From NCBI GenBank assembly GCA_963669155.1, contig OZ022576.1, positions 31,279,335 to 31,343,334 of the forward strand: a stretch of 64,000 bases of DNA, read 5' to 3'. Both the position numbers and the translations under genes were made by a program. The notes under the pieces were generated by a model. The model did not search any database. It was not told the origin of the DNA and saw only the letters and a program-made list of their open reading frames with translations. Of this stretch, positions 1,507 to 59,619 are shown in pieces; the stretch's first letter is position 1; each line of letters opens with the position of its first letter. Source of the stretch: Arbacia lixula. Lineage: Eukaryota; Echinodermata; Echinoidea; Arbacioida; Arbaciidae.

Positions 1507-4500
1507 TCGATGGCCAACAGCCCGACACTTCCCTTCCGGTCAACGCACACGTTGGCTACTATGCAGCGATGACCGCAAGGTGCGCTGACAAGTTGCTGCT
1601 ATTCGACGTAGAGGTCCACGCCGAGCGGCAAGGCTCGCAGGCCCCGCCGCCCGGGAACTATCTGAAAGTAAAGACGAAGAACTATGAAACTGAGCTGAAA
1701 TGGTAATGTTCATTCCTTTACAGTAAAAATAAAGGATCATGTATTTCGTTTTGAAGTACGTTGTACAGTGTGTCTAAAAAAAACCCTATACATTTCTGAA
1801 ATGGCGGCCAAATAAAAAAGCATACAATTTTTTATTGGGGGGGGGGGAGAGATTATATGTATGGATAGCTTATGGACTCAACTTTCATATGACACAAAAA
1901 AACTATGAAAATACTTCATGCTTGCATGAGCAGTACTCACTTTTGTAAATGGTATAAAATTAACCTTCCAATTTAGCGAGAGGTGAGTCCGTTGGAGCTT
2001 AAAAAACTGGAGTTGATGTGATAAATTCATGATCAATTGTGATCTGAGGGGAAAAGATTTATTTGTAAGAATAGTTACAGAATGATCTCATCTTTCATAC
2101 GACCCAAAAATGTCAGAATAAGTCATGCATGGGTGAGCACAATTCAGTTTTGTAACGGGTATGGGGATTGAGCCTTCCAGTTTGTGAGAAAAGTCCTTTG
2201 AGAGTTTGGAATTGTGGATTATATGAAAAATGGACGTATGGTCAATTGTGACGACTTGTGTTATGCTTGTGCATAATCCTAGCAATACATGCTGTTCTTT
2301 GCCCCCACTCCGAAATATCCAGACCATGCACCCTCTCTTATCCCGAATTCTTTCTACATTTTCCAAATTGGACTGGTTGCTATTACCCATTGATACATGA
2401 AATCAATAACAATCTGGTATCAGTCCATCAGTCAATTTATCAATACCATGACTTTAACAATGATCATTCCGCTTTCAATCGCTTAACACAAATGCATCAA
2501 TCAATCGATTAATCAGTTAATCATTCAAGCAGTCAGTCACCATTCAGCTATTTCAATCAATTATTCATGTATAATTAAACTCAATCAATCACTCAATCAA
2601 ACAACCAACCCACCAATCAGTTAAGTACTTGAGTTCACACATTTAATAAAGAAAAATGCAACACAAATGTGTAACATGAATATGTCGGTCTTCGTTTTCA
2701 GTTGATGATTATTTCAAATTTACAGCTGTTTAATCCGCTGCAAAAAAAGGGGGAATCCAAAAATCAAAATCAAAAGTCTGCCAGTTCACTGAGTTCAGTG
2801 GTCCACATGTCCACCTCCTCGTTCGATGCAGTTGTGCTCTCTTCGTCATGTCCCGCACAGCTAGCTCTCCTGACCGTTGCTCTATCTCGGGTGATTTTTC
2901 TTCTGATTTTGTCCAAGTTGGCTGGAGGGGTAGTGTACACCTTTGCCTTCAGATATCCCCACAGGAAAAAAGTATAGAGGCGTAAGGTCGGGGCAGTGGC
3001 GTAGACAGCTTCGTACACCTGGGGGATGACTGGGCAGCCAACGCTCGAGAGGGCGCGAAAGCGCCGAGCAAAGAATGGAAGCGACCGAGCCGAGGGCATC
3101 GAGGGTGTCCCACCACCAACGGTAGGGAGCTTTTGCAATCTTGAACTTGAAATCGTGCAATCTGATGCATACTTAATGAGGTAAAATAACATACACAAGC
3201 GTGCACGCACACTCATACACATACTCACACGCACACACACGCACACACACACATACACACACACACACATATACTACGCCTCGAATGGACAGTCATAGTT
3301 TCGAAAAGATCTACACACCGTGGCATACGAGTACAGAATAAACTGACACATATTTTGCAGAAAGGTTCGTAATGGATCCAGGGGTAGTTTGGGTACCATT
3401 CGGCTTGAAGCAGGCATCAGTTTCAAACGGCACTTTTTTTTCTGGTTGAACTTCCGGAAGAACAGTCATATCTCCGACATCATCCGATTTTGACGTAGAC
3501 GGCTGTTCGTCATTATGTTCTTCTTTCTCATTATGTTTGAAAAAGAAGTGATCTTTGATGTTTTCAACTTCTTATTATGAGCCATCCTAGAATCCGAATA
3601 TCAATTCACGCTGTGAATTATGACTTTTGAAAAGTTACATTTTTGCCTCTAAAAAGTGCCCACTCACGTACGCATGACTTATTGGATTAATGTGATTTTC
3701 ACACAACCTCTTCAATAAAAAGTTATGCTATTTTGCTTAGTGAGTACAAACCACAAGATAACCACAAAATACTTGTAAGATTTTCTCTTTTTTACCGTCT
3801 GAATTGGCTTTCACCGTGTGAATACGGCTAATACATGTACCAATAAACACAATTTCAATAATGATGAGGATTATTATCATAATCATCATTATAATTATTA
3901 TTATTATTATTAATATAATTGTTATCATTATTTTGTTGTATTCGTCTTTATTGGTCTCAAATCATTCATATACATCGAAACATACAATACACAGAACGTA
4001 ATAAACACAATAAAGATGGAAAATATAACATAAGTAGATATATAGCTTAAAGGTAAAGTAAGTTTAGAACGCCCAGGTCCTTAGCATGGAACGTATAAAA
4101 TACTAAATGCCAATGGCAGGGCTCATAAATAAGGATGCAGGTGAGATAGGAAGAAAAGGCAACAGAAAGCGGAGGAAGTTGCACAAGAAGGAAGACAATC
4201 TTTGCGATATACAAGAGATTAATTTAGGGGTCACTAGTTTACGACAGTGTACATAAATTTGCATTGACACTGGCGTTAATAAGATCGTATTTGTTTTTAC
4301 ATGTATAATCGTTTTTACGTTCTTATAAATACTATACAGATTTAAGTACAAAATTCACTTAACGAAACATTAAATTTATTGCATATGAAACAACAAAAGG
4401 AAAATGTTATGGGCTTACTTTATAGGTTCATTTCAATCTCACATTATTATAATGGTTTATGCAGGAGCCTTAAAGGAATTGCACGTCAAAATAAATGCAT

Positions 4501-7500
4501 TGTTATTGACAAAATCTGCAAAGTTAAGATTTCATTCATATCAAATAAACAATCTTATTCCAACAATCTATCAGAACGTAATAACAAAATGAGCTTGGCG
4601 TTCAGATAAAAGTGCAAAGAATTAATTCATAATTTCATAAAGAGGTAATTTGGATTACCTAGGATCAATATCCCTATTCATTGTACGAGATTCAAAGAAA
4701 AGTGATAATCTTTATATGAACTACCAAAATACAGAATATATGGAGATCGCGTTGTAATTTTCAATATTTCTAATTTCACTAGTTTGGGGTATTGCAACAA
4801 TGCTAACACGACATGTATATAGAATACTAATGCCTTAAACCAAGCATGCCTGCAATTAGTTGCCAAAATAAAACGCCCCCCCCCCCCCCCCCCCCCGCAG
4901 TTTGGGAATCTTACATATTTACACATTCATATACTGGGGTGTGTGCCACACAAGTTCCTTCCTACTATAAAAAATAACGTATGATCCCATAAGTGCAGAT
5001 TTGGCCACAGTATCTCTAAGTTCCGAGTATTTGACTTTGATATTGCACAGTCCCATGATCAATTTCAGTCTAGATTTGTTGTCTGGCGTGATCAACCCTC
5101 TTGATCCAATTTCAAGACAGACCAGTCTTGGTCGCCACCCGACAGTTTGAAGATCGTGAATGAGACCTGCATATCGGTCTTCTTTCCTTGTGTGTGCGTC
5201 ACAAATATTGGTCTCAAAAGGGACAGTGAGTTCAATAACTATCACTTCTTTCTTTTTCTGGTCAAAATAACAAATGTCCGGTCTTTGCTCAGTTGGGAGG
5301 ATAGATGGGGGTATGGTGCCACCATTGACGTTCTCACCCTCCAGATCAGCATAAACTTGACAGATTTTGTCTACCATATTTGCTTTGATGCGTAGTAGTA
5401 TGGCTTGGAGGATATTGTTATGTCTCCATGCGTAACGGTCAAGCATATGCTGACAATTATTAAGCACATGATGGAGAGTGCCGGTGACGTTGCACAGACT
5501 GCATTTGTCGCTCAATCTCTTACCCCAGCGATAGAGATTTTTGTTTGAGGGGAGACTATCAATGGAGGCATTTACAGCAAATTTCATAACTCCTTGAGGC
5601 AAATTGTACTTAATAGATTTCCAAGATAGGTCAGTGTCTTCATTATATAGAATTTTTAGAAATTCTCCCTGTACCAACAGTGGTTCTATGACCGCTTTCC
5701 ACTTTTCATGATTTTCCTCAATGAGCGTCATTTTAATAGACTGTTTCGTTTCCTTCCACGTATTATGTTTACTCTTTTCATATACAGCATGTGCATCGCT
5801 AATAGTTGATGACTTTCGATTCCAATTTCCCTCCCTAACCAAACGAGTATCCAAAGCATGGTTAACTAACCCGTCTCCTTTCATCTTAGATCTCCCGTAG
5901 GCAAGGGAATGGCAAATTTTGTACAGCCCGGAAATATTTGGTATATTCAATCCCTTCTGAGCATGAAGCAAGGCTATATTTGCGCCTTGCTTAGGTATCT
6001 TTGACCACTTTTTCAGGTACCTGTCTAACAGCATATCTAAAGATTTTAGGTGAGTAGCATGTAAGTCATTTACCGTTAATGCGTATCGAAGAGAAGGCAA
6101 TGAGTAATCTGTGCATATTCTTCATTAATATTCTTTTTAATATTACTGTATTATCATCATTATGACTTATTAAGTAAGCAAATAATCATTCACCCAAACC
6201 TGGGGGGGGGGGGGGGTGATTGTACATGCCATCACCCACCTTGTGAGGTGGGGGGGATGCATCTCACTCATTCCCCCCCCCCCCCCCCCCCCCCCGTTGT
6301 CTACGCCCCTGGGTCGGGGGAACGCGAGGGCCATTCAACATCTCGATGCAAAGAGACAACTCGATCTCCGAAAAGCTGGGTGAGACGCTCTGTCACTGCT
6401 CTCGAACGATGACAAGGAGCTCCATTTTGTGCCCACAAAACACGCTGGAAGTGAACGTTTCGACGACGGCGGTATCTTGGAATCCTGGTAAGGGCAGGTA
6501 CTACTTCCTCGTCTATATCATCTGGACACAGGCAGCTCCGGTAACGTTGTTGTCGAAAATAACAGGTCCAATGATATCGCCATTCCCTGTGAGGCCGGTG
6601 CCACCGCGTCAAGTGACACCCGCGTCAGATGACCAGATTTTTTATGGTGTCGCTGAAGAGACCCACTCATGTTTCTGTGGACTGTTGCGCGTGTTGGGCA
6701 TCTTACATGCGGAAAGAAATCTCGGAACCTCTGAAGGACAGCATTGGCACTGTTACTGCGATGATACGCTGTTAAGGAACGCTGCTGTGGTGTGAACTGA
6801 GGCCTCTCCATCTTTGGTTGTCAGTCCAACACTCCCAGATGAATGAGGACTGAGTAACAAACTTACAGCTCTTAATTTTTTCTTAACGTTTCATGGGCAA
6901 GTGACACACTGGTACACACTGTTATTATTTTACATTCACTTTGAATGAAAACCTCCATCCCACATTCCAGTTATTTTAAGATTAGTTGAACATCTCATAG
7001 ATTTACGTAATTGTACTCTTGTAGGCCTAATCATTATCACCATGGGCGGATCTACGAAAGGGGGGGGGGGGGTAAATCTCCTCTTGTTGCCATAGTTTCA
7101 ATATCACGCTAGAACGCGAGGCTATGATTAATATAATGTTGAATAATAAAGCACATTCCCATAATCTGCAATCATCGTGTGATTTTCGCATACCACCCTC
7201 TATAGGTATAAGTCGATGGATTGGTGGGCGGATTGCGTTTTGTCCGGAGTCCCGGAGGTCGTGTGTGGTAACCGGGACGATGTGCGTGGACGGGCTAAGT
7301 CTGTCACGATGTACCGCACCAGTGATATCCCCTATGTAAGTAAACTCAGCAGCTAGTGGGTGTTAAAAACAATTGCTGACACTTGTGAAAAATAATGAAA
7401 AAATGTTACAACTCGAATCAGGCTGAAATTGACACATCATAAAGTCAAAGGATATCAGTTTTCTTCGAAGCACATAGGTTTCGTGATATTTCATCAATTA

Positions 7501-10500
7501 TCATTCCTGTCATAATCCTCTGAATGAATTCAATGAGATCTTTACTTTTGGACAAATTTGAACCTAAAAATATGTATATCAGATGATTTATTCCAAACAT
7601 TGTGTTAATATTAATGCATGATGCCTCTAGCCGAAAAATGGCCATTGTTGTGTTCTGACTTAATCATCTGATACAAACAAATTTCCAGATCTGAACTTGT
7701 CTAAAAGTGAAAAACCCATAATATTCACAGGATTTTTAAAAGAAATATAATAAATGAAATGTCACAAAATATTTGACATCCTTTCACTTTATGATGTGCC
7801 AATTTCAGCTTGATTCAATTTATGACTTTTAATCAGTTTTCAAAAGTGCCAAAACTTTTCTTAAAAAGTGTCTGAATTCTGACCACAATTACTGAGAAAG
7901 TCTCTAACCGTGTTTAATGTTCAGTTTGTCTATTGATCGGTTGTACTCGTTATATAACAAGACATAATGACAGCATATCCTTTTAAATGTCACCTTTCCC
8001 CTTACCGTAATCTTATAGACACCTTTAGCATGTTTAAAGGTGATATTCATAGGAAATGAAATTAAATAAATATAGTTTATTTTATAATTGAATGAGTTAT
8101 TACAGCAATTTATGCAGCTAACATGCCATGAAAGTGTTCAGTTTTGTGTTTTATGAAAATCAAACTTCACTAAATTGACTCCCTCCTGACCTGCGAAATC
8201 GCCTAAAGGGAGAGTGGCTTTGTGCGTACGTCACAGCCGGGATATGCTTCACACAGCTATAGAGACTAACTGCAATCTACACACAAATGTTCATAGAGTG
8301 GATGTCAGTTCCACTCTCTCAAAACGATGAAATATTTCCTGAATGGTCAATATCTTACATACATTTGTCCTCTCCCGTCCCGAAAAATATCCTAATGTCA
8401 ATATTCATATCATTATTGGCATTGAAAAAGTGACAATATATCCATAAAATAACTGTTTACAACTCAACTTTTTCGCCGGCTTTAGCTTGACAGCTAAGCT
8501 GTATGTATGAGTGGTCCACAAACCGGCCCCTACCCTTGAAACGGGTAGGTTGGGTCGAAGGTTGGGTCGCGATTTATTATCTATTTACGCATTAGTAAAC
8601 AAAATGCAAGATTTTCGGAAGCAAAATTAGACAAAATGTGCACTTATTTGGCAATTGCACATTTTCGTTCGAAACATCTCCGTTTTTCAACTTGTTCGCA
8701 CTTCCGTGATTTTCAACAACAGCAGAATCGCCTCGATTTCTCCAGATAATCTAGCTATGATACGATCGACTATGTTTATTCTTCGATTGGTTTGAATCTT
8801 ATCTTATTCATAATAATGATTAAATAAAAACCAACTGGGTTTTTTTCATAGTGGAAGAGGCGAAGTCTCCGACTGATATGTCATGCAAAGTGAAACTACA
8901 TGGTGGTAAAAAAATCGCCCCATAGTATGCACTGCAGGCTTGCTGTACAAAGCCAGGAACATGCACAGCCATAGTTTTGCCTCTTTTCTCCATTTTTCAA
9001 CCTTTTTATTTCACAAATATTACATTTCTTAGAATATCAAGATAAATATATTAATAACAAGTAACTTACACACGATGTTGCATTATAATTTATTCTATAG
9101 TAAAGGAAAATAACACATAGGTTGAAGCTGTGTTTTCAGCCTTACAATGTAATACATGCATTCTACTCGATACCCGGAAGTGGCACACTAGCCACGCTTC
9201 CCGTTTCTTACGTCATAACTACAGGCCGTTTCGGATGACGTAGGGCAAATTTGTCCCAGCGAATATGGTGATTGTTTTCACCTTAATTTCGCTTTTTTGG
9301 AAGTGATATATTATTTGAAAGTCCCCCACACGTACCACCCCTCCGACCATATTTTTCTTACATACATACACACACACACATACACTCACACACACATACA
9401 CACGCACATGCAACCTCACACAACTTCACACAACCTCACACACACTCACACACACAATCCCACACACACACACACACACACACTTCTCCTCTCACACCTT
9501 TTCTCTCTTTATATGTTTTTCTGTCTCTTTCAGAACTGGACGCCAGGTGATGCATTCACGAAGTTTTGGTCTCTCCTGAATGATATCGAAGGGGAAGTGA
9601 TCGATGACGACCCCAGGTACAAAATGTCTGTCCTTCTCACATTATTTGCTCAATTAGTTAGAAGAGCGTCTGATTTTGTTTAGTGAAATGATTCGAGATT
9701 TAAGATTCAAGATTCAGTTTATTTTTCCACAAAAAACATGCGTAAAGTTCAAATACAATGAACGCAAACAATAAATAAACACATGAACATAGAAAACAGC
9801 GAACAGCTGACAGACTAGCGACTACCGGATGGTTTTATTATGCGCTGTGTATCGTGGGATACACCATATCAATTTTCAATTCGCGACAGATTCACACGCA
9901 ACGCTCGGCAAATTATCACGAGGGTTCTGAAAATCTCAAGAAGAACTGCAAATTGGATCGCGATCGCAAATTGGATCGTGATCAAATTTCACTTTTTGCG
10001 TGTGTGTGAAAGCGGCTAATCTTTTAGGTCCAAATTTGTCCAAAAGGTAAAATCTCATTAAATATTTAAACTATTATATCAAGAAAAGCAATCGATGAAA
10101 TATAACGAAACCTGTTACGAAATATTTGACATAGTTTGACTTTATTATGTGTCAAGTTTGGCTTAATTTGAGTCGAAACTAACTTATCATTTTCCGAAAC
10201 ACCTAGTACATGTATTATGAAATTAACTTGTGTGTGTGTGTGTGTGTGTGCGTGTGTGTCTATGTGTGTGTTTTTGTGCGGCCATTTTTCAAAATGGCCG
10301 CCTTGGAAAAAGTATTGACCACTATTTAAGATAAAATCTCAATAGAAAATTTTCCCACATCATATGAGGTATCATATCAAAGAAGATAAACTTTCCTACA
10401 AGGAGGTACCACATTTGCTAGACTTTGTGGTTATATCCATAACAATTCGGAGCAAAGAATGTGACTTTTTACCATATTTTCCAAAGATTTTAATTTCAGA

Positions 10501-13500: not shown

Positions 13501-13832
13501 GTACCACTTCGGGGCAAATTTTCGCTCAGGATGCGATCTGGCACGGCAGCGGTACAAAGTAATTGAAACCTTATTGAGGCTTACTACAACATAATAACAA
13601 TATGCTTAAACAGGCGACGTGAAAGTGTGGTTTCTGAACTACCTCTGTGACGTGCCTGCATTAACCTATCCACCCTAGGTCTGTCTACCACCTGGTTCTC
13701 GAGGAAGAACCGATAGGCCCAGGACTCAAGCACAGACTCAAGGAGAGGAAGTTCACCGTCAAAGGGAAGTACCCGGATGACTACGTCATCCTCCCTGACT
13801 GGTACATCGATGAGGTGCTCGGAGGGGAATAG
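1507..13832 (+). CDS. DXO: DXO/Dom3Z/Rai1-family decapping exoribonuclease-like protein, C-terminal exons
   Basis: Four exons join in frame: 1507-1702, 7206-7335, 9534-9616 and 13679-13832 (stop 13830-13832), all with AG/GT boundaries and matching phases (2-base, 0, 2-base). The protein aligns along its length with the C-terminal half of human DXO: LLLFDVEVHAE with LLFSGEVDC, YLKVKT with YVELKT, WWADCVLSGVPEVV with WWAQSFLPGVPNVV, the VIDDDPR end of exon 3 with VVQDDPR, and ILPDWYIDEV with FLPIWYVEAM. The family removes incomplete or non-canonical 5' caps and degrades RNA 5'-3' with a two-metal site. Here the metal-ligand Asp of EVD is His, the Glu of ELK is Lys, and the Gln after WWA is Asp. 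The N-terminal exons are not seen. Family assignment is strong; catalytic activity is doubtful. Confidence 0.87.
1850..2270. repeat. two diverged direct units of a dispersed repeat
   Basis: Two stretches of about 100 bases (about 1865-1970 and 2075-2175) share the order CTCA..CTTTCATA.GAC, AAAAT, a TCATGCATG-like core, GAGCA and TTTTGTAA.GGTAT. A third relative is at about 18235-18350. Function unknown. Confidence 0.45.
3188..3272. repeat. (CA)n microsatellite
   Basis: Imperfect CA/CACG dinucleotide run. Apparent reading frames across it are low-complexity artefacts. Confidence 0.9.
4872..4898. repeat. poly-C tract
   Basis: About 25 consecutive C, just beyond the 3' side of the R2-like LINE reading frame. 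Comparable G or C runs occur at 6203-6216, 6274-6296, 7062-7073, 46151-46164, 51599-51625, 55090-55107 and 55291-55304. Confidence 0.9.
4919..6100 (-). mobile_element. RLE-type (R2-like) non-LTR retrotransposon, C-terminal ORF, 5'-truncated
   Basis: A 393-codon open frame encodes the end of an ORF from the R2/R4/Hero group. After a region resembling the RT-distal linker come a zinc-knuckle-like CCHC motif (C200, C203, H210 or H211, C216; CSLCNVTGTLHH) and then a restriction-like endonuclease pattern, RPD at 273-275 and VIVIELTVPFE with E290. These elements cut a target site and prime reverse transcription from it. Reverse transcriptase motifs are not present; sequence upstream of about 6120 is unrelated, so the copy is 5'-truncated. 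The remaining frame has no stop, suggesting a fairly young copy or a recently active family. The 3' UTR probably runs down to about 4680. Confidence 0.82.
6203..6310. repeat. poly-G / poly-C flanked transposon end
   Basis: A poly-G run (6203-6216), a central segment and a poly-C run (6274-6296) lead into GTTGTCTACGCCCCTG. Its reverse complement, CAGGGGCGTAGACAAC, resembles a common GGCGTAG-type transposon end; a relative, GGCAGTGGCGTAGACAGC, is at about 2993-3010. No second end is identified. Confidence 0.45.
6301..6811 (-). pseudogene. Tc1/mariner-superfamily transposase relic with DUF4817-like N-terminus
   Basis: Two minus-strand frames overlap. The upstream one (6811-6518) begins FTPQQRSLTAYHRS and resembles the DUF4817 helix-turn-helix region of animal transposases. 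The second (to 6301) contains QNGAPCHRSRAVTERL, FGDRVVSL and WPSRSPD, the second-aspartate region of an IS630/Tc1/mariner catalytic domain (normally QDGAPxH; here N replaces D). The two parts are in different frames, middle sequence is missing, and the gene stops at a C-rich junction before the final Glu motif. It is clearly dead. Confidence 0.72.
7369..7865. repeat. MITE-like inverted-repeat element
   Basis: About 80 bases at the left (GCTGAAATTGACACATCATA and AAGTCAAAGGATATC at 7421-7456) recur inverted at the right (GACATCCTTTCACTTTATGA at about 7775 and TTTCAGCTTGATTCAA at about 7803). Partial relatives lie at 10110-10185 and 32530-32575, so the family is dispersed. No coding capacity. 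Confidence 0.65.
7866..9533 (+). other. DXO-like intron sequence
   Basis: Intron between the WWAD exon (ending 7335) and the exon starting 9534. Beyond the element at 7369-7865 I see no gene. It contains a GGGTAGG-type short inverted motif (8525-8570) and a long CA tract ending 50 bases before the 3' splice site. Confidence 0.6.
9360..9484. repeat. (CA)n microsatellite next to a 3' splice site
   Basis: An interrupted CA tract of about 120 bases ends at 9484. The pyrimidine stretch and CAG acceptor of the next DXO-like exon follow (exon from 9534). Confidence 0.9.
10226..10272. repeat. (GT)n microsatellite
   Basis: GT run with one CGTG interruption, immediately outside the left arm of the 3.1-kb inverted-repeat element. 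Confidence 0.85.
10280..13372. mobile_element. 3.1-kb long-inverted-repeat (foldback-type) element in DXO-like intron
   Basis: The left arm (about 10280-11075) is repeated inverted as the right arm (about 12580-13372). Outer ends read GGCCATTTTTCAAAATGGC on the left and GCCATTTTGAAAAATGGC on the right. Inside, left segments such as GGAGCAAAGAATGTGACTTTTTACC (10449-10473), TTCCTTCATATTTCCGATAA and GGTCTTGACATCCACTATGACCT match the reverse complement of the right arm at 13185, 13130 and 12625. A separate inverted-repeat element lies between the arms. A further copy of an arm segment (GTCAAGATAAGCA..TTTGCAAATCATGTG at 11918-11958) is in direct orientation with 13039-13075. I see no transposase or clear target duplication. 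Confidence 0.75.
11124..11755. repeat. MITE-like element nested between the arms of the larger element
   Basis: The left end, TTAAAGGGAATCAGACCCGG then CGCTCAAGAGGGCG, is inverted at the right as CGCCCTCTTGAGCTCCGGG then TCGAAATTCCTTTAA. Length about 630 bp. The interior is richer in CpG and in CGTACG-type words than its surroundings. Position and structure imply it entered the larger element later. Confidence 0.75.
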
Positions 13833-26188: not shown

Positions 26189-32904
<6,716 letters not shown>

Positions 32905-46731: not shown

Positions 46732-47925
46732 TCATAGCGTTGATGTCGATCCGAGATAACGCATCGGCAACTGCGTTGTCCGCCCCTTTGACATGTCGGA
46801 TATCTGCCGTGAATTGGGAAATGAAATCCAAATGTCGAATTTCACGCGGCGAATATCGCTCTCGAGCGGCCGGATGCCCTCGTGGTCGACGCGGTGACCG
46901 AGGAACTCGAGCGAGGCCACACCAAACTCGCACTTGGCAGGATTGATCACGACGCCGTAACTTGCCAACCGATCGAAAAGGGCGCGGAGATGACGCTCGT
47001 GAGCCTCCATGCTGTCACTGGCGATGAGCAGGTCGTCGATGTAGGCGTAGCAGAAGTCGAGTCCGCGCGTGACCTCGTCGATGAATCGCTGAAACGAGTT
47101 AGCCGAATTCCGGAGGCCAAAAGGCATCCGAGTAAACTCGAATAACCCGAACGGTGTCGTAATCGCGGTCTTATGGATATCGGATGGCTCAATAGGTATC
47201 TGGTGGTAAGCGCGGACGAGATCGATCTTCGAAAATACGGTTTTGTTTGCCAGCATCACCACAAAATCGTGAATATGTGGGATGGGGTAACGATCCGGGC
47301 GTGTGATAGCGTTGAGCGCTCGGTAATCACCACAGGGCCGCCAATCACCCTCCGTACGTTTCGGCACCATGTGGAGGGGTGACGCCCAGTTACTCTCCGA
47401 CGGGCGGATGATGCCGAGCTCCATCATGTGGTCGAATTCAGCACGGGCGATCGCGAGCTTGTCGGGCGCAAGACGTCGCGGGCGCTGAACGACCGGCGGG
47501 CCCGTCGTCGATATATGGTGCGTAACCGAGTGTCGGATGGCGGTGTCGGTGAAATTCGTCCTGGTGATCGTGGGGTAATCTGCCAAGATATCGTTGAATT
47601 TCACCGAGGGGGCTTTGGCGAGCGACGGATGAGGAGATTGGGCAGATGAAAGCACGCCTTGAATTTTGAGTGTCGTCGTCGGGTCGATCAGCTGCCGTCG
47701 AGTGACGTCGACCATCAGGCCGTAATGACGCAGAAAATCGGCTCCCAATATTGGCGTCGAGATGTCGGCAATTACAAATATCCACTTGTAACTCCTTCTC
47801 AAGCCAACATCGAGTGCAAGCGATTTCTCGCCGTACGTCCTGATGGGCGTGGAATTGACGGCGCACAGCTGTGGTCCCGGTCGTGGTCGTTGTCGGTCCT
47901 GTTTACTCGGCGGGATAACCGACAC
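46732..47925 (-). pseudogene. Gypsy protease and reverse transcriptase region
   Basis: The region contains a retropepsin tail ([12 protein letters not shown]) followed by Gypsy-type RT motifs: [17 protein letters not shown] and the YIDDLLIAS active-site box. It is part of the broken CsRn1-type element; later pol domains are not seen. Confidence 0.85.
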
Positions 47926-48029
47926 CTCGGCCCCCGTGTCAACCAGGAATCGCCGACGTGTCTGACGATCCGTGACGTAAAAGAGGCGACTTTGAGTGGT
48001 CGATGATGGGCCAGCGAAATCAGTCGCAC

Positions 48030-48926
48030 CTATTCGCTGGCGTTGGCGTTTCCCTGGTCGAGCTGTCGGTCGTATGTGCGGCCGTACGTGCAGGGTGCGC
48101 GGCAGTTATGGGCCTGATCGCCATACGTAGCGTGATACCAGCATGTACCGTTGTCACCGCTGCGTGGGCGAGGGCTGGGTGAGCGGTCGTGGTGCCCGCG
48201 ACTACGATAACTGCCGCGCTGGCCTGATCGTGACCGACTTCGTTCACGCCGCCGTAGTTCGAAACTCAGAGCGCTAACCTGTGCTGCTAACTGCTGAACG
48301 TCTGTTTGCAGTTGTGCAACTGTCGAAGCTGGCTGGGCGGCGGGTGACGCGACAGCATTGACAGTCACACCTGTGGCGATGTCGACAATTTTATCCGCCA
48401 TGTCAGCTAGTTCCGCGATGTCCATGCGTTCGCTGGTGGATGCAAGAATCAATTGAACGCTGGTAGGAAGACGGTTAATGAAAAGCTGCTTCAAAATAGA
48501 GCTCTCCAACTGGCGATCACCTAGGAGCTGCCGCATACGTCGCAGCAGCTGCGATGGCTTGCGATCGCCAAGCTCCTCCTCCGTTAGCAGCTGTTGGAGG
48601 CGTTTCTGCTCCGACGCCGATGTCCGGCGGATTAGTGCCTCCTTCAGTGTGGAGTAGGGTGTCGATGGCGGCTTGCTGATGATGAGGTCACGTACCTCTT
48701 GGGCAATTTCCGGGCTGAGTGCTGCTATTATGTACGAATATTTCGTATCTTCGTTCGTTATCCTTCTGGTGGAGAACTGCGCCTCAACTTGCGCAAACCA
48801 CACGTGTGGGTCGGCCGGCCAGTAAGGTGGGAGTTTAACGCCCAGCGCGGCGATGCTGGTCGTCGTCGATGTCGATGTTGCTGGTGACTCCTCCATCGTC
48901 GATTCGGTCGGTGTAGTGGTAGACAT
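48030..48926 (-). pseudogene. Gypsy Gag-like region
   Basis: An open region of 298 codons. A Gag-type helical segment (LPPYWPADPHVWFAQVEAQF) is followed by an Arg/Ser-rich stretch and a CHCC zinc motif ([18 protein letters not shown]). This replaces the usual CCHC knuckle and is a mark of the CsRn1 clade. Confidence 0.85.
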
Positions 48927-48968
48927 CGTTGTCGGATTACGTACTTTGTTCGAAGTATATATCTTGCT

Positions 48969-48988
48969 GGATCACGTCGGGGTCACCA
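48969..48988 (-). other. primer-binding site, tRNA-Trp type
   Basis: Minus strand TGGTGACCCCGACGTGATCC starts two bases after the 5' LTR and matches the 3' end of animal tRNA-Trp. Confidence 0.8.
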
Positions 48989-50870: not shown

Positions 50871-53800
50871 ATGGCAGCTTCGGGATCGCAGTTGGTAGAC
50901 TCGGCGACGCAACGCCGTCAAGTTGAAAGAACCGTTTCTTTTGATGGTTTAGCAGACTGTGTTGAAACACAAGAAACAGGTGTTCCTCTCAACTCGCCAT
51001 GGACATTTTGGCTGGAAAGGTAATAGTAAAAGAATCCCGACAAATAAATAGATCTATTCAGATATTTTCACACACTGTCACACTCACAGTCACACAGACT
51101 AGACAGAGCAGAGCCCGTGCCAGCGCCAGAGGTCAGAGCCGTTCACAGACAGGCAGGATCAGGAACAGCCGGCAGGCACAGGCCAGTGCAGAAGGTTGAG
51201 AGAAAGTCTATGGACTTTCTGTCAAAAAATTATGGGCTATTTTTTGACAGTTTTGCTTTGCAGTTCATGCTGAGTCAGTACTGTGAGGTAATGCATGTAT
51301 TGCCAATGAGGCGAGGCCTTGGCATCGGGATTGCGTAACACATACACAATTGGGTTGGATTTCCTTTGGCCTTGTCAAAGAAAAGTGGGATTACCACTTT
51401 TGAGAAGGCATGAGGTTAATGCAAGCGGCAGGTCATTTGAGCGGCTGAAGCTGAGGCTACAACGGGTAATCAGGGTCAGAGAAGCATCACATCATTTAGC
51501 ATACCTCCCAACCATTCTGATTTTGGAGAAATGTTTTCTTATTTTTTTTTAAATTTTAGTATTAGCTTGTGTGTGTGTTTTTTTGTTGTTGTTTTTTAGG
51601 GGGGGCGGGGGGGGGGGGGGGGGGAGTTCTCTTGCCTCATTTATGGATTACAGATTCCTCCATTTTACAGTGCAATACTATACATTAAACACTCAGTATC
51701 CAATTTTAATGTACAACATTCTAAACTCCTTCCTTGGAAGGCTGGCATACTATGATTTAGCATTATAGCATACCACCCTGATAAAGCTGGATATTAAGCA
51801 AATAATCAGCGTTGGTGAGGGTGATGGGACGAACTATCACTTCCGAGGCGATGTGGATGTAGCTATCTTTCCGAAGCGCAGCTGAGGAAAGATAGCGTAT
51901 ACATTCAGATCGCCGAGGAAGTGATAGCTCGTCTCATTGCTTGAAACCAAAAGTTGATTATTTGCTTTATATTCCACATCTGAAACCAACTATCTATACC
52001 AAAAATGACAATTTGACGTAAAAAGGTAATGTTTACTTATCTCCATAGCCCCGAGCCGCTACCATGGGGAACACGCATTAGGATGCGCATTAGCACGCGC
52101 ATTAGCACGCGCATTAGCACGCGTATTAGGACGCGCATTAGGACGCGCGTAAGGACGCGTTAGATGTCAAGTGATAGTCCGAGTGTAACGCACTTTTATT
52201 TCGCGCGTACTCAAAAAATATTAATCACGCATTAGGACTGTGAGGAGTGAAGAGATCAGCGAAACCAAAAAGTACTATCACCTAGAGTGTAACGAACTTT
52301 TATTCTCAGGTGATCTGATAGGAAAAATTACGCCTCATCACGTGATCAACTCTTGACAAATCATATAGCAACATTCTCAGTATGTGGAATATAATGGATA
52401 TTATATTCCACACACTAAGAATGTTGCTATATGATTGGTCAAGAGTTGATGGCGTGATGAAGCATAGTTTTGCCCATCTGATCACCTGAGAAGAGAAGTT
52501 CGTTACACTCTAAGTGATAGTACTTTTTTGTTTCGCTGATCTCTTCACTCCTCAAAGTCCTAACGCGTGATCAATATTTTGAGTATGCGTGAAATAAAAG
52601 TGCGTTACACTCGGACTATCAATTGACAGTAGCTCCTACTGACGCGTCCTAACGTGTGTTCCCCATGGCAGCGGCTCGGGGTTAGGTAGAGAAGAAAACA
52701 TTACTTTCGTATGTCAAATTGTAATTTTTGGTATAGATAGTTGGTTTCAGATGTGGAATATAAAGCAAATAATCAACTTTTAGTTTCAGGCAATGAGACG
52801 AATAATCACTTCCTCGGCGATCTGAATGTATACGCTATCTGCATCCAGATCGACTCGGAAGTGATAGTTCGTCCCATCCCCTTTACCAACGTTGATTATT
52901 TGCTTACTAACTTTTCCATGAATTAACCATTTCAACCAGATTTATAGGGAGGTAGACCAATGGTCTCTGATGACAGACAAGATGATAGACAAAGCATACA
53001 CTGCTGGGTCTACATGGCTCATTGTTATATGTCAAATGTATCATGCAGGTCCCTGGGAAATGGTGTGAAATATCAGCTACTGTGCATCTACCAGTACATA
53101 TTATTTTCTACTCTTCTTCATGTACCTCAGGGAATAGTGCAAACATACGTTTATGTGAAGAGTTGTATGTAGGGATATTTGGTCTTTTCTGGAAGCACAG
53201 ACTAACTTGTTTTCCTGTTAAATATTTTTCTCTACAGATCCATGCCAGTAGCTACTGCAGCTGAAGTAGAAGCTAATCTTGAACCAATATACACAGTCAA
53301 CACTGTGGAGGTAAATATATATTATTATTTATAAAATATTCAAACGAACAAACAAATTGATGGAGGGTTAATTTGCTGATTTGAACATGTAAAATATTTA
53401 CAGCTATACAATGTACATCATATATGCTTGTCCACTCCATTAATTTTTTTATCACATTATGCTGAAAATGTTGTGATAGAAGAGCCTTTACTAAGTGTAA
53501 GATGAATGCTTACTTGAATTCTCTTTTCTCAAATATGTAGATAACTCTAATCAGTCTAGTGTTTGTGTTTATTAGTGTTTGTTTTTCAAAATATAGATTA
53601 AACGATTGGTATAAATCCCATATGTGTTGGGACACCTACACAATGTCAGAATCCAAGTAAATGCTTATCCCATACCGGTAAGCTATTTTTGCAATGTATT
53701 TGCAACTCTTCTCCAAAGTGCGCAGTAATGTGGTATTATAATCACCTGTCTACAGGGATTCATTTTCAGTTAGTGGAATGCCTTTTGAATTGATTAGTTG

Positions 53801-56800
53801 TTGCTACTCACACAAACCTCAGACAAGCTTTGGGGTTACCAGTAGGAAGGAATTGTTTCAGAGAAATTTGCATACATAACAGAAATGGTCTATCATGATC
53901 TTTATCACTTTGCATCACATACATATACTGCAACCAGACCCCTCTAAAAAAAAAAACTTAACTAGTATTCAATTTTAATTTTGACTGGTAGGTTTTAACA
54001 GTTTTAAGAATATAACACAGAAAACAGACTTCTAAGGGGTTTTATTGATTTTGGGGGATGGATATCTCAAATGTAGTCTTTTTCATTGATATGCTATTTG
54101 ATATCAACATCACAATATGAACAAATCAATCAGATTAATGCTATATCCAGAGAAATGTGTGATAAGACATCACATTCATTCTGCATTTGATAAAGAAGGG
54201 AAGCATGAGAGCAAAACTGCCAAATGATATGTTTTTCTTGCCTTTTAAAATAATTCTATGCCACTGTCCAGATTCATATCTTACAACCTCATACAATGAT
54301 TTATCTGCTAAAGTGATACACAACCTTTAAGAGAGTATTGTATTTTGTTGTTTTCTGTCTTCTCTCCAGAATTTCTGGGGTGTGTTCAACAACATTCCTG
54401 ATGCCAGTGAATTGCCACTCAGATTCAGCTATCACCTGATGAGGGACAAAATCAAACCTCTATGGTAGGGATTTGTCCAATTTTTATAAAGCCAGTTCTT
54501 GAAATTATTGGTTTATTGTCTAAGTTATGCTGAAATCCATACACCTCTGCATGGTACTTTAACCTGGACGTTTGTTGTGTTTTATCAATATGGTATGTAC
54601 ATGATTTGGTGTAGTAATCTGATCAATGTATCAGAGCAGCAGTGTATAATTTGTGACATTGAAAAGACTTAATCTAGTGCAGTGTGATTTGCAACTTTCC
54701 AAAATTGATTGATTAATCAAGATGACTAAATACCTGTATGTATTTGAAATTATTTAAGAAGGGTTAGCATTTAAAGAACCTCTGTCATTGTCACCCAGAA
54801 AACTGATATTTTCCTTTAAAGTGATTGGCACCAAAGAAATTTAAAACGGTATAAAGCAGGCCCGATGCCACCATTGTGTTTATTGCTGTGTCATGTGTTG
54901 TAAAGGAATTAATTGTGGTGGTCATACTTGTACATGTATGTATGTCATGGATTTTCTTTACCCTCATGCTCTATGGAAATATGATCCGATGAAGCATATA
55001 ATTGTGTTAGAAAGTATGTGAGGGCGACTATTTAAAGAAAGAGAACACACTGAGAAATCAGTGAGAATTGTGCTTAACCGTGTTCTAACTGGGGGGGGGG
55101 GGGGGCTCATTTTTACTCCCCCTGTATGAAATCTGCGTCTGAAGTGCAACCGCTGAGCATCACGACACGCCTTCAAATGACTTTGTCTTTTGAAGTGCCT
55201 TATAAGTTTTGGCACCGCATTTGAAAAAATCAGGACACTTAGTTCACAGGTTACGCAGCACTATGATCATCACATGTCAGACCAAAATGACCCCCCCCCC
55301 CCCCAGTCAAAACCTGCTCTCAAAAAACCCCAGTCAGAATAGGATTAAAGGGAAAGTTAAATTGGTTTTGATAAAAGCAGAAACATGAAAGAAAGAAATT
55401 ACTGAATGTTTGACAAAAATCTGGCCAGCATGTCACGGTCATATGTCCATTCTCTCTCTTCCTCCCTCGTTTGTACGCTACATAGGGAGGACCCCAGGAA
55501 TACGCAAGGTGGAGACTGGAAATTCAAAGTACAGAAACACCAAACGGTAAGCAGAGGCAGACTCTCTAGCATCGAGTTGTGAGGGCCTAACGATCCACTG
55601 ATGAGTATTCATAGAGCTATACTTCATTGATGAACAGTGTTGTACGGTCCCTGACTTACTTTTTTTGTTGTGTTTATCTTATTGAATCCACGTTTAGCCC
55701 GTCACCTTTGCAGTGTATCTTTGATATTTTGTTTGTATTGAAGCTGTGGAAGTACAAGTACCATAAATGTAATTTTAACTAAAACCCCTTCTCCTTGACT
55801 CTCCTATTCATAAATACGGGGAGTTGATTACCAGAATACAACAAGACTTGTACGTTTGATGTTTCTCCTTATGTTTACTCTAAAAACAGGGGTACATAGA
55901 ACTCAAAGTACATGACTGACAATGTAGGTAGTATCCATCATTTTCAAAATTTGTTTATTAAACTATAACTGTATTACACATGACTAGTACTTTGCTAATA
56001 GTTTGTTGTGCAAGTATGTCTTTAGCAAAATATATAGTCTTTCTACCGTAGATAGGTACAAGAGCCAGCTACCTTTTAAACTGCTTTATTTACCAATTTC
56101 CTTGTTGCTTTTTGTAAAATGACAAAAACCCCAGACTAATATTTCTGTTGTTTCTATTTTTGTGTTTAAATTTTATGTTGTAGACCAAAGTGTGGAAAGA
56201 AGTTCTACTAGCAACGATAGGAGAACAGTTTTCAGCAAGTATATCACCAGGTGAGGAAAGAAGGCAAACGCAAACCAAAGATGGCCGTTAGAGCTGTTCC
56301 AAAGGCTGTACAAACATAAATCTGTTTATTTTGGTGTAAAATTTGCCTTAATCTGTCCTGGCAATCTCCCATAAGTTGTGTTCAAAATGATTCCATAAAT
56401 TGCACTTTTTCTGTTTTTAACTACGGAATGATTTTTTATCGTACAGGTATGTGTGTAAAAACTATTTCTAACAATGTATCAAATGCACAAGTAAAAGGAT
56501 GCATATCTTTTTGCGAAAATGCACATTTAAAAAAAATGTACACAACATACTGGAGAGCACCTCACACGTGACGTCATAAAATCAAAATTTTGAAATCAAA
56601 CGAGACATACTTGTGGACAAGTTTAAGGTGGTCTGCATTGGCAAATTTGTGCACAGACATGGTATGGTAAATGCACGGCGACACCATCGTCTTTCCATGG
56701 TGACACCATCTATTTATTAGAAATCAGAGGCAACGCTCAAGAAAACTCATTAAGCCACATACAATATACTAACATTTCAGAGACTTGACAAAATGATGAC

Positions 56801-59619
56801 ACCTTCCATTGACATAACACGTACATGCGTCCGTTTATGACGCTAATGCGAATAATGAAATTTACACCATGAGGACATCAACAAAATGACAAATGAAGAA
56901 AATTTATCTGTAGAAGAAGGTCTCAGCTATAACATAGTGAAATTTGGGAGGAAATTGACAAAGGATTACTGAGATATGCAAAAGCGGGTAAAAAAGTTCA
57001 TGACGTCATAATTGAAAATTCATTTTTTCGATTCATATGGCAATATGATGACGTCACAATGTACTTACCGATAAAATGACACATAAAATCACATTTAAAT
57101 TTTATACTCTTTCCAAATATTAAAAAAAAATGGGGGTCACTGGCTATTCTGAAGAGCTATGGCCTATTGAAGACAGTCATTTTTTTTGCAATATTTGCAC
57201 ACAAAAACGTATTGATGCACGCGCGGACTTTCAACTTTGACGCACCCTCACGACCTTGTTTTTGCATGGAAATGGCTCAAAATTTCAGGATGTGATGGTA
57301 GTAGTGTCAGAAACATGAAACCAGTAAAAAAATGGAATTTTGACGGTGCGTACGCGCTACGCACGAAAAAACACGCGAATGCGCGCACACGCGCGGAAAT
57401 TTTTGAGATGCTTGAAATAACCTGAAACACATGGAAAACAATTTTGAGTTGATTTGGAGCATTTAAAAATTTTGCGCGCGCGTACGCGTACGTTAGTGCA
57501 AAAATGCGCGCGCAAAATTTTAAAATGCTCCAAATCAACTCAAAATTGTTTTTTTTTGTTTTTATTCATTGAAATCATTTGTATTATCATTAAATTGATG
57601 CATATTAATTTTCATTAGCTATAAATGTTTGGTTCTAGAGCTACATGAGGTAATAGGTTTTTCATTAAACTGCTCGTATATGACGTCACGATGACGTCAT
57701 GACCTTGAAAATGTTGCTGGAACATGTTCATGTATATATTCATGCATGATGAAGATTTCATGAAAAATGGCCCATGCATTGTTGAGATATCCATGCCACA
57801 AGAATTTGGAATAAAAGTAAATAAATAATAAAGAAAGAAAAATCGGACAAAAACAAGAGGTGATCTGCCATGGCATGGCAGACCACCTAATAACTTTCTT
57901 TTCCTTTGATCGATTTTTATCAAACCTTCACTAATATGTTTCTTTCATGTTTCTCCTTTCATTGAAATCAAAATAATTTCAGGGAGAACTCATGCTATAT
58001 GGAATTTGCAGGTATTACTTATCCTGTCTGCTTGTTCTTTTGTTTGTAAACTGAATAGAGGTGATGAGATATGTGGTGTGAGCATTGGCATTAATAAGGG
58101 TTTTAATAAGGGCATTAATAAGGGGTGAACAGCATAACTCTTACCTGCTTGTTCCCCTGTTTCTGATTTGAATACAGATGACGAGATATGTGGTGTGAGT
58201 GTCAGCATACGGAACAGCAACGATGTGATCCAGGTGTGGAACAGATACTCCCGCTTCTCTGAACAGGCCTCCATTGTGGACAAGGTCAAGGAGTTAACGC
58301 CAGACATCGATTTCAGGGCTACCTTCTACAAAAGTATGTGTCGATGTATACATAAATTCATTTTTGTATTATATTTGAATGTGCAGTGAAGCATATGTTA
58401 AAGGTCATTACACTTTACAAGCCATCAGCTCTCTGGTGATACCTTAAATTCATTGTTCATGAAGATTGTTTATTTTGTTTTTAAATGCTGAATAGATGAT
58501 TCAATTGAATTGAAATAAAATCATCAAATGTGGTTTAAAAAATGGTAGTTTACAAGGCTCTGAATGGTCAAGCTCGTAGTTATATGATGTTATTATTGAA
58601 TCCTAAGTCTTAAATTCTTGATTGTAGCACACAAGCACATCCATATTGCAAATGCACCCATGTAAAAACAAAGTAACACTCGCTTGAATTAACATTAGAA
58701 ATATGGAAAGCCTCATCATTAGTAAGCTTTAAATCAAGACTGAAACATGCTATATTCATGCAATATGTACACCACAACATTTATGAGCTCTTGCAGTGGT
58801 GTAGAATATATCCTATATGTATATTGCGCTGTACAAATAAATATCTTATTATTATAGGATGTCATCTCTCTATCTCCGTAGGGACAAACAGCCCTAGAAA
58901 TGATTTGATTTGAATAGAGAAAGACAAATTCAAAGCAATTTACTAGTGAGTATTTGGGTTAATTTTCTGGTAGACAAACAATAACTTGATAAGCATTTGA
59001 CATTTTATGAACTTTTAACATAATTTTGCATTCCTTAATTGAACTTGACTGCATATAAGGGGAAAGGACTGCATGGATAACCCATCAGTGGAGCCCGAGA
59101 TCAAATGCACAGTGATTGCAATCAAATGCAATCAGCTGCATACCAGATATTTTATTCAGTCCAAAATCATGGAAATTTGTTTTCCACCAGAGCAATAACA
59201 CAACAATATATAGCAATACTATAGACACATATAAACAATAAACAATGAGTTCGAAAAACATATCTAACCATGGTTGAAATTCGTCTGTGTAATTGTAAAT
59301 TATGTACTATATGTGGCATAATAATCAAGGACTGAAAAATCATGAGCTGCAGAATTGGGTTCATATTATTAGTTTCCTTCTCGTTCCACCCCTGATGTTA
59401 TAAGATATATTAGATTTACTTTGTTTATTCTTTGACTGCAGTCTGACTGCAATAGATTGCAATCAGCTGTGACGTAGATCTCAGGCCCAACTGCATGGTA
59501 TGTGTAATTGGTTGAATGTGAATGTCCCTCAGCATTGCAAGTAAAAAGCTTGTTCTTCTAAACACCTTGTTCCCCCTACAGCACATCATCTACACGACTC
59601 CTTTGAGAAAAGGCCATGA
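50871..59619 (+). CDS. EIF4E3: eIF4E3 (eukaryotic initiation factor 4E class III) orthologue
   Basis: Seven exons: 50871-51019, 53238-53310, 54370-54464, 55486-55546, 56184-56250, 58178-58333 and 59582-59619. All have GT/AG ends and consistent phases, giving 212 residues (human 224). Matches to human eIF4E3 run throughout: SPWTFWLER, NLEPIYTVNTVENFWGVFNN, LPLRFSYHLMRD, PLWEDPRN, VWKEVLLATIGEQF, GVSVSIRNSNDVIQVWN and FRATFYK, then a short C-terminus ending FEKRP. Class III proteins bind the mRNA cap with one conserved Trp (here W106 in PLWED). The second cap-stacking position, Trp in eIF4E and Cys in mammalian eIF4E3, falls at V60 (AAEVEANL). The dorsal Trp for 4E-binding partners is W77. It acts in the cytoplasm as a cap-binding, usually repressive, translation factor. 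The start ATG in exon 1 has context GCGAAAATGG. Confidence 0.95.
51795..51796. repeat. TA target duplication, left side of palindromic element
   Basis: TA at 51795-51796 and at 52905-52906 bracket the 1,108-bp inverted-repeat element. Confidence 0.55.
51797..52904. mobile_element. 1.1-kb nested palindromic element in eIF4E3 intron 1
   Basis: The whole segment is one inverted repeat centred near 52395. AGCAAATAATCA at the left end mirrors TGATTATTTGCT at the right. GACGAACTATCACTTCCGAG, ATTCCACATCTGAAACCAAC, GAGCCGCTACCATGGGGAAC and TCATGGCGTGATGA-type blocks have inverted partners in order. Within each arm the outer 150 bases (e.g. 51829-51937) are again an inverted repeat around a short loop, so the palindrome is nested. 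TA flanks suggest a Tc1/mariner-type MITE. No coding region. Confidence 0.87.
52078..52165. repeat. 12-bp minisatellite (ACGCGCATTAGC)
   Basis: About seven units of ACGCGCATTAGC/G with small changes lie in the left arm of the palindrome only. The right arm at the equivalent place (52640-52655) has just a remnant. Confidence 0.85.
55345..55440. repeat. partial MITE family A, copy 3, next to eIF4E3 exon 4
   Basis: ATTGGTTTTGATAAAAGCAG then AAACATGAAAGAAAG matches the family A left end. It stops about 45 bases before the exon 4 acceptor (exon from 55486). Confidence 0.55.
56390..57990. repeat. MITE family A, copy 4, split by another insertion
   Basis: Left part 56390-56625 (CACGTGACGTCATAAAATCA core) and right part 57890-57990 (TTTTTATCAAACCTTCACTA then CTTTCATTGAAATC) together look like one family A element interrupted by the 1.26-kb element between them. 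Confidence 0.65.
56626..57889. mobile_element. 1.26-kb inverted-repeat element inserted in a MITE
   Basis: Begins AAGGTGGTCTGC and ends GCAGACCACCT (11-12-bp TIR). An internal hairpin near the middle right (57428-57555) pairs AACAATTTTGAGTTGATTTG then GAGCATTT with its inverse around GCGCGCGCGTACGCG. The 57340-57510 segment is rich in alternating GCGC/ACGCG words. No coding region; the target duplication is unclear. Confidence 0.65.
59086..59493. repeat. MITE family C, long copy, in last eIF4E3 intron
   Basis: The left CAGTGGAGCCCGAGATCAAA and right GATCTCAGGCCCAACTG arms carry the same TTGCAATC / GCTGATTGCAATC words as 25075-25196. They surround about 300 bases of unrelated AT-rich DNA. The right end lies 88 bases before the last exon. 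Confidence 0.7.

Follow-up and report, generated by a model that had tools for sequence, protein, structure and literature searches.

A spliced DXO paralog with replaced metal-site residues in the sea urchin Arbacia lixula, probably without DXO-type catalysis

The window analysed here is a stretch of 64,000 nucleotides from the sea urchin Arbacia lixula (assembly GCA_963669155.1; contig OZ022576.1, here C1; forward strand, C1:31279335-31343334), and near its start lies a gene of the DXO/RAI1 family whose active site departs from that of mouse DXO, an enzyme that takes defective caps off RNA. A preliminary description of this stretch had taken positions 1507 to 7335 as the gene. Two segments there, 1507..1702 (+) and 7206..7335 (+), are DXO/RAI1-domain coding exons with AG/GT borders and matching phases, in line with its statement that splicing and phase are intact; its span, however, covers only the middle of the gene, with two further exons lying 3' in the window and two upstream of the window. 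The model comprises the following exons:

Exons 1 and 2, C1:31265893-31266176 and C1:31279046-31279245, same assembly, about 13 kb and about 0.3 kb before the window start
Exon 3, 1507..1702 (+), holding motif III EVHAE and motif IV YLKVK; acceptor ttcctcag, donor gtaatg; entered in phase 1, left in phase 2
Exon 4, 7206..7335 (+), holding motif V WWAD; acceptor ctctatag, donor gtaagt
Exon 5, 9534..9616 (+), NWTPGDAF...DDPR; acceptor tctttcag, donor gtacaa
Exon 6, 13679..13832 (+), including the stop codon

Joined, the four window exons encode 186 residues up to the stop, and the full six-exon model encodes 348 residues with no internal stop, GT/AG borders and intron phases 2,1,2,0,2; its introns are large, reaching 12.9 kb, and the donor of exon 2 was picked from three phase-consistent candidates. 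Two other delimitations were rejected: a start at an ATG within the 1392-1706 frame, because of the two phase-matched upstream exons, and an upstream extension of exon 4 to include a DXO-like TLYR, there being no in-frame AG before 7206. Intron 3 contains, on the reverse strand (4919-6121), a 400-residue frame that by eye resembles a partial retroelement polyprotein.

The 348-residue model scores 112.3 bits against the PF08652 profile (cut-off 26.8; residues 13-308; E = 3.9e-32, or 5.6e-13 for the window part), which places it in the RAI1 family, and the best PDB match of the window part is DXO itself (E = 1.3e-11), with 60 of 195 aligned columns identical to the mouse protein. Like mouse DXO (Dom3Z), the predicted protein has the RAI1 domain, E234, K255, G133 and the pattern GVP.VV.G.R (all catalytic positions are numbered here as in mouse DXO); unlike it, R132, E192, D236, E253 and Q280 are replaced, and the segment from KT to WW is about six residues shorter. 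We rejected identity with the DXO homolog eIF3d, as a Pfam scan returned RAI1 alone at E values up to 0.1.

The replaced residues lie in the following elements of exons 3 and 4:

EVHAE, 1611..1625 (+): E234 kept, D236 replaced by H, a new E at 238
Codon of E35 (E234), 1611-1613 (+)
Codon of H37 (D236), 1617-1619 (+)
KVK, 1665..1673 (+): E253 replaced by K, K255 kept
Codon of K53 (E253), 1665-1667 (+)
Codon of K55 (K255), 1671-1673 (+)
Codon of D74 (Q280), 7231..7233 (+)

The window gene thus reads EVH, KVK and WWAD at the places of EVD, ELK and WWAQ in mouse DXO, as originally noticed (D236H, E253K and Q280D), and exon 2 adds W131R, R132H and E192R, so that only E234 and K255 are kept among the seven catalytic positions (132, 192, 234, 236, 253, 255 and 280). 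In mouse DXO, as described in PMC13213243 and PMC7293010, D236, E253 and the carbonyl of L254 bind metal 1, and E234 or E192 binds metal 2; R132 and Q280 form a conserved site for the cap phosphates, W131 stacks, and K255 may help to activate water. The preliminary description was right that the replaced Asp and Glu are metal ligands, but both serve metal 1, together with the L254 carbonyl, and it is the kept E234 that serves metal 2 (PMC13213243). Set against this arrangement, the window gene has His and Lys in place of the metal-1 ligands, Arg in place of E192 beside the retained metal-2 residue, and His and Asp at the phosphate-recognition positions, none of which matches the DXO/Rai1 enzymes; the motif IV lysine does.

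Mutagenesis of the same positions gives an indication of what such changes may mean. The double mutant D236A/E253A of DXO is reported to lack decapping and to yield hardly any exonuclease products (PMC5877831), and the Caenorhabditis elegans allele EOL-1 E297K, whose site its authors equate with DXO E253, is one of six eol-1 suppressor alleles and is classed as loss of function from the screen (PMC12247656, a preprint). The window gene naturally carries lysine, the residue of that worm allele, at this place. With D236 and E253 both changed, one of them to the worm-allele residue, and the phosphate pocket altered as well, ordinary catalysis is likely to have been lost.

To place these changes in context, we compared the window gene with other DXO-family loci in the same assembly (607 Mb, 590 contigs). 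The PF08652 profile gave ten exon matches in at least five loci, while no match was found in 14 control genomes; one match to the window gene shows three stops, because it extends beyond exon 4 into intron sequence. No locus beyond the five was found by the profile together with four protein queries of this genome, all counts being lower bounds. One locus, C4 (near 21.58 Mb), is the second, canonical DXO whose existence had been raised as a question: it scores 324 bits with PF08652 and retains all seven catalytic residues, its last exon not having been found in the locus search; with mouse DXO it is 43% identical overall and agrees at 7/7 catalytic positions. The remaining loci, C3 (near 8.81 Mb) and the tandemly arranged C5a and C5b on the reverse strand (C5:3633937-3648558 and 3666934-3679510), are three further altered paralogs; for the C5 models, neither the segment with motif II nor a final exon was found. 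In an alignment of nine sequences, five canonical and four from altered loci, the residues of the altered loci (window gene, C3, C5a and C5b, in that order) are:

Position 132: H, R, R, R
Position 192: R, A, and no residue for C5a or C5b, where the place was not found
Position 234: E, E, E, E
Position 236: H, H, H, H
Position 238: E, E, E, E
Position 253: K, N, N, N
Position 255: K, R, R, R
Position 280: D, Q, A, A

The motif E-(V/I)-H-A-E is common to all four altered loci, whereas position 238 varies (L, R, I, C or V) among the five canonical sequences; nine columns are uniform in the window gene, C3 and C5a yet differ from every canonical sequence that covers them, and H236 and E238 belong to these nine. 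Intron phases agree as well: the window gene and C3 both have 2,1,2,0,2, and C5a, as far as its introns were located, has 2,1,2,0, while C5b repeats the exon lengths and borders of C5a. A tree of the nine sequences, which include three short fungal Rai1 stretches, separates the four altered loci from the other five by a branch supported at 100/100; the root is a midpoint root only, and the order among the altered loci is left open. Of the three replacements first noticed, then, only H236 extends to all three sister loci; K253 (N in each of them) and D280 (Q, A and A) do not. In these alignments, H236 is common to the altered loci and K253 and D280 are particular to the window gene.

This distribution bears directly on whether the three codons could be errors of sequencing or assembly. 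K253 and D280 were seen in a single assembly, which would leave room for such an error; at H236 we rejected it, as the same residue recurs in three other loci, while the change from Q to D requires two base changes and three further active-site changes sit in exon 2. We regard error at the three codons as scarcely credible.

The conserved Glu-x-His-Ala-Glu strand also raises the possibility that the metal site has been rebuilt rather than lost. In the window protein, E234, H236 and E238, at alternate strand places, perhaps with D280 contributed from the helix, might make up a changed metal site, leaving a working hydrolase that prefers other substrates or metals; more broadly, the altered loci might be a branch of DXO paralogs with a two-metal site rebuilt on this strand, having a new metal-dependent activity or acting as a metal-gated RNA binder beside ordinary DXO. 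The sharing of the motif by 4/4 altered loci, at a place where canonical sequences vary, speaks for such relocation of ligands, which had been offered as an alternative from the start, and an acid moved behind the lysine is described in the PD-(D/E)XK fold for CCGG-family restriction enzymes (PDX21-53KX12-13E; PMC4652773). However, E253 is gone from all four loci and E192 from the window gene and C3; the helix acid at 280 occurs in the window gene only; that E238 faces the active site is predicted from strand alternation; and E297K, the worm counterpart of E253K, is classed, as noted, as loss of function. What stands of the alternative is the new and shared E238, and we consider both the rebuilt enzyme and the wider rebuilt branch unlikely.

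Retention of the fold with loss of cutting would also be expected of a non-catalytic sensor in which the usual DXO pocket still takes up RNA caps or 5' phosphates. Mouse DXO carrying E192S/E234Q/E253Q is reported still to bind FADP (PMC7293010), and the sister locus C3 retains R132 and Q280. In the window gene, by contrast, W131R, R132H and Q280D change the conserved phosphate site (as that site is described in PMC13213243) along with the stacking tryptophan, which weakens the earlier suggestion of a cap-sensing pseudoenzyme for this gene; a sensor of this kind is rather unlikely here, and C3 is a more plausible candidate for one.

Whether the window gene is maintained at all can be judged from its coding pattern. 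Its four window exons have a guanine-plus-cytosine (GC) content of 0.51-0.57 against 0.38 for the introns, GC by codon position is 0.60/0.38/0.66, and only 4 of 20,000 base shuffles of these exons were free of stops. On the assumption that 111 nonsynonymous changes (half of the differences between the window gene and C3) arose on the window gene's side, 6.0-6.5 stops would be expected without selection and none is seen (P = 0.0015-0.0024). The tandem pair tells a similar story for indels, with none in 860 coding bases against 6.1 expected (P = 0.002; expectation from 85 indels in 11,898 aligned non-exon bases, taken from three long BLAST blocks), and substitutions between C5a and C5b amount to 1.9% in coding and 3.6% in non-exon sequence. 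The idea that the gene is a decaying pseudogene or an unexpressed duplicate can point to its introns of many kilobases, to the loss of catalytic positions at about the same rate as other family-invariant ones, and to the substitution pattern of the C5 pair, both of which we return to below; set against the open 348-residue model with its GT/AG borders, the missing stops, the coding-like GC by codon position and the indel-free C5 exons, it is in our view very unlikely. The description of the gene as a constrained family member, dead or altered, stands in the sense that its frame has been kept open while ordinary catalysis has very probably been lost.

Taken together, these observations lead us to favour the view that the window gene probably is a maintained, spliced DXO paralog without two-metal RNA hydrolysis. 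In such a protein metal 1 could not bind normally, and there would be no decapping and no RNA degradation in the manner of DXO; the retained fold might, more tentatively and by analogy, hold RNA or partner proteins, making the product a non-cutting RNA-surveillance factor. Since the cap-phosphate pocket is altered too, the protein would more likely work through contacts with other proteins or an altered RNA surface than through classical cap reading. Given the several DXO copies and the pathogen-induced eol-1 described in C. elegans (PMC7735679, PMC12247656), a role in RNA defence is a fair guess, no more.

Several points weigh against this favoured view. Among the window gene, C3 and C5a, catalytic cells are kept in 5 of 18 cases and other family-invariant cells in 29 of 66 (P = 0.28), and for columns identical in mouse and C4 the counts are 7/21 and 147/423; the special protection of catalytic positions is gone in the altered loci. 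Their rate of loss is not significantly above that of the other invariant positions, so the changes may reflect divergence of the whole protein and not selection to abolish catalysis. The C5 pair differs by 15 nonsynonymous changes to 1 synonymous, with no sign of strong protein constraint there; the tandem copies may be fast-evolving, the resulting ratio of 4 being unreliable as it rests on one synonymous change. Furthermore, the kept E234 and K255, together with an E238 that is new and common to the altered loci, could support a different chemistry, and what the protein does is deduced here from the gene sequence.

Non-catalytic relatives of DXO are already on record in Drosophila Cutoff and in eIF3d (PMC7293010; PMC4053829). 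Cutoff, whose partners in its PIWI-interacting RNA role are Rhino and Deadlock, is said to protect precursors of these RNAs, presumably because critical residues are absent (PMC4053829); a shielding of 5' ends of RNA has been proposed for it. The fly also has a Rai1-like copy, CG9125 (PMC6179187). The window gene, with 2/7 catalytic residues beside C4 with 7/7 in the same genome, resembles this situation in logic, the likeness being drawn from Cutoff's published description. Multiple DXO copies in one animal genome are likewise described for C. elegans, where 10 (PMC7735679) or nine (PMC12247656) DXO homologues are counted. A literature search, outside whose coverage most subscription papers fall, found no report of this ExHAE family of DXO paralogs, and DXO did not occur among the matches listed for DXO with echinoderm, sea urchin or amphioxus. 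A four-locus ExHAE branch next to an intact DXO would show that DXO has spawned a set of modified paralogs in one more animal, raising the question of whether these paralogs attach to the ends of RNA but leave it uncut, shield those ends, or have the ordinary DXO as their target.

Elsewhere in the window, features recognised by eye include a 354-residue open frame resembling a Tc1-type transposase (30980-32044, +) and two frames of 457 and 313 residues resembling pol and gag of a Gypsy-type long terminal repeat retrotransposon (46732-48971, -). Exons resembling PQBP1 were picked out by eye at about 26200-29700 (-) and set aside, as neither the Pfam nor the PDB search confirmed them. At about 53242-59619 (+), limits again by eye, lies an eIF4E3-like cap-binding gene of several exons, whose 161-residue translation, joined by eye, matches eIF4E type 3 (PDB 4b6u, E = 1.9e-55), with PF01652 found in one frame; that two cap-related genes, this one and the DXO paralog, lie near each other is probably a coincidence.

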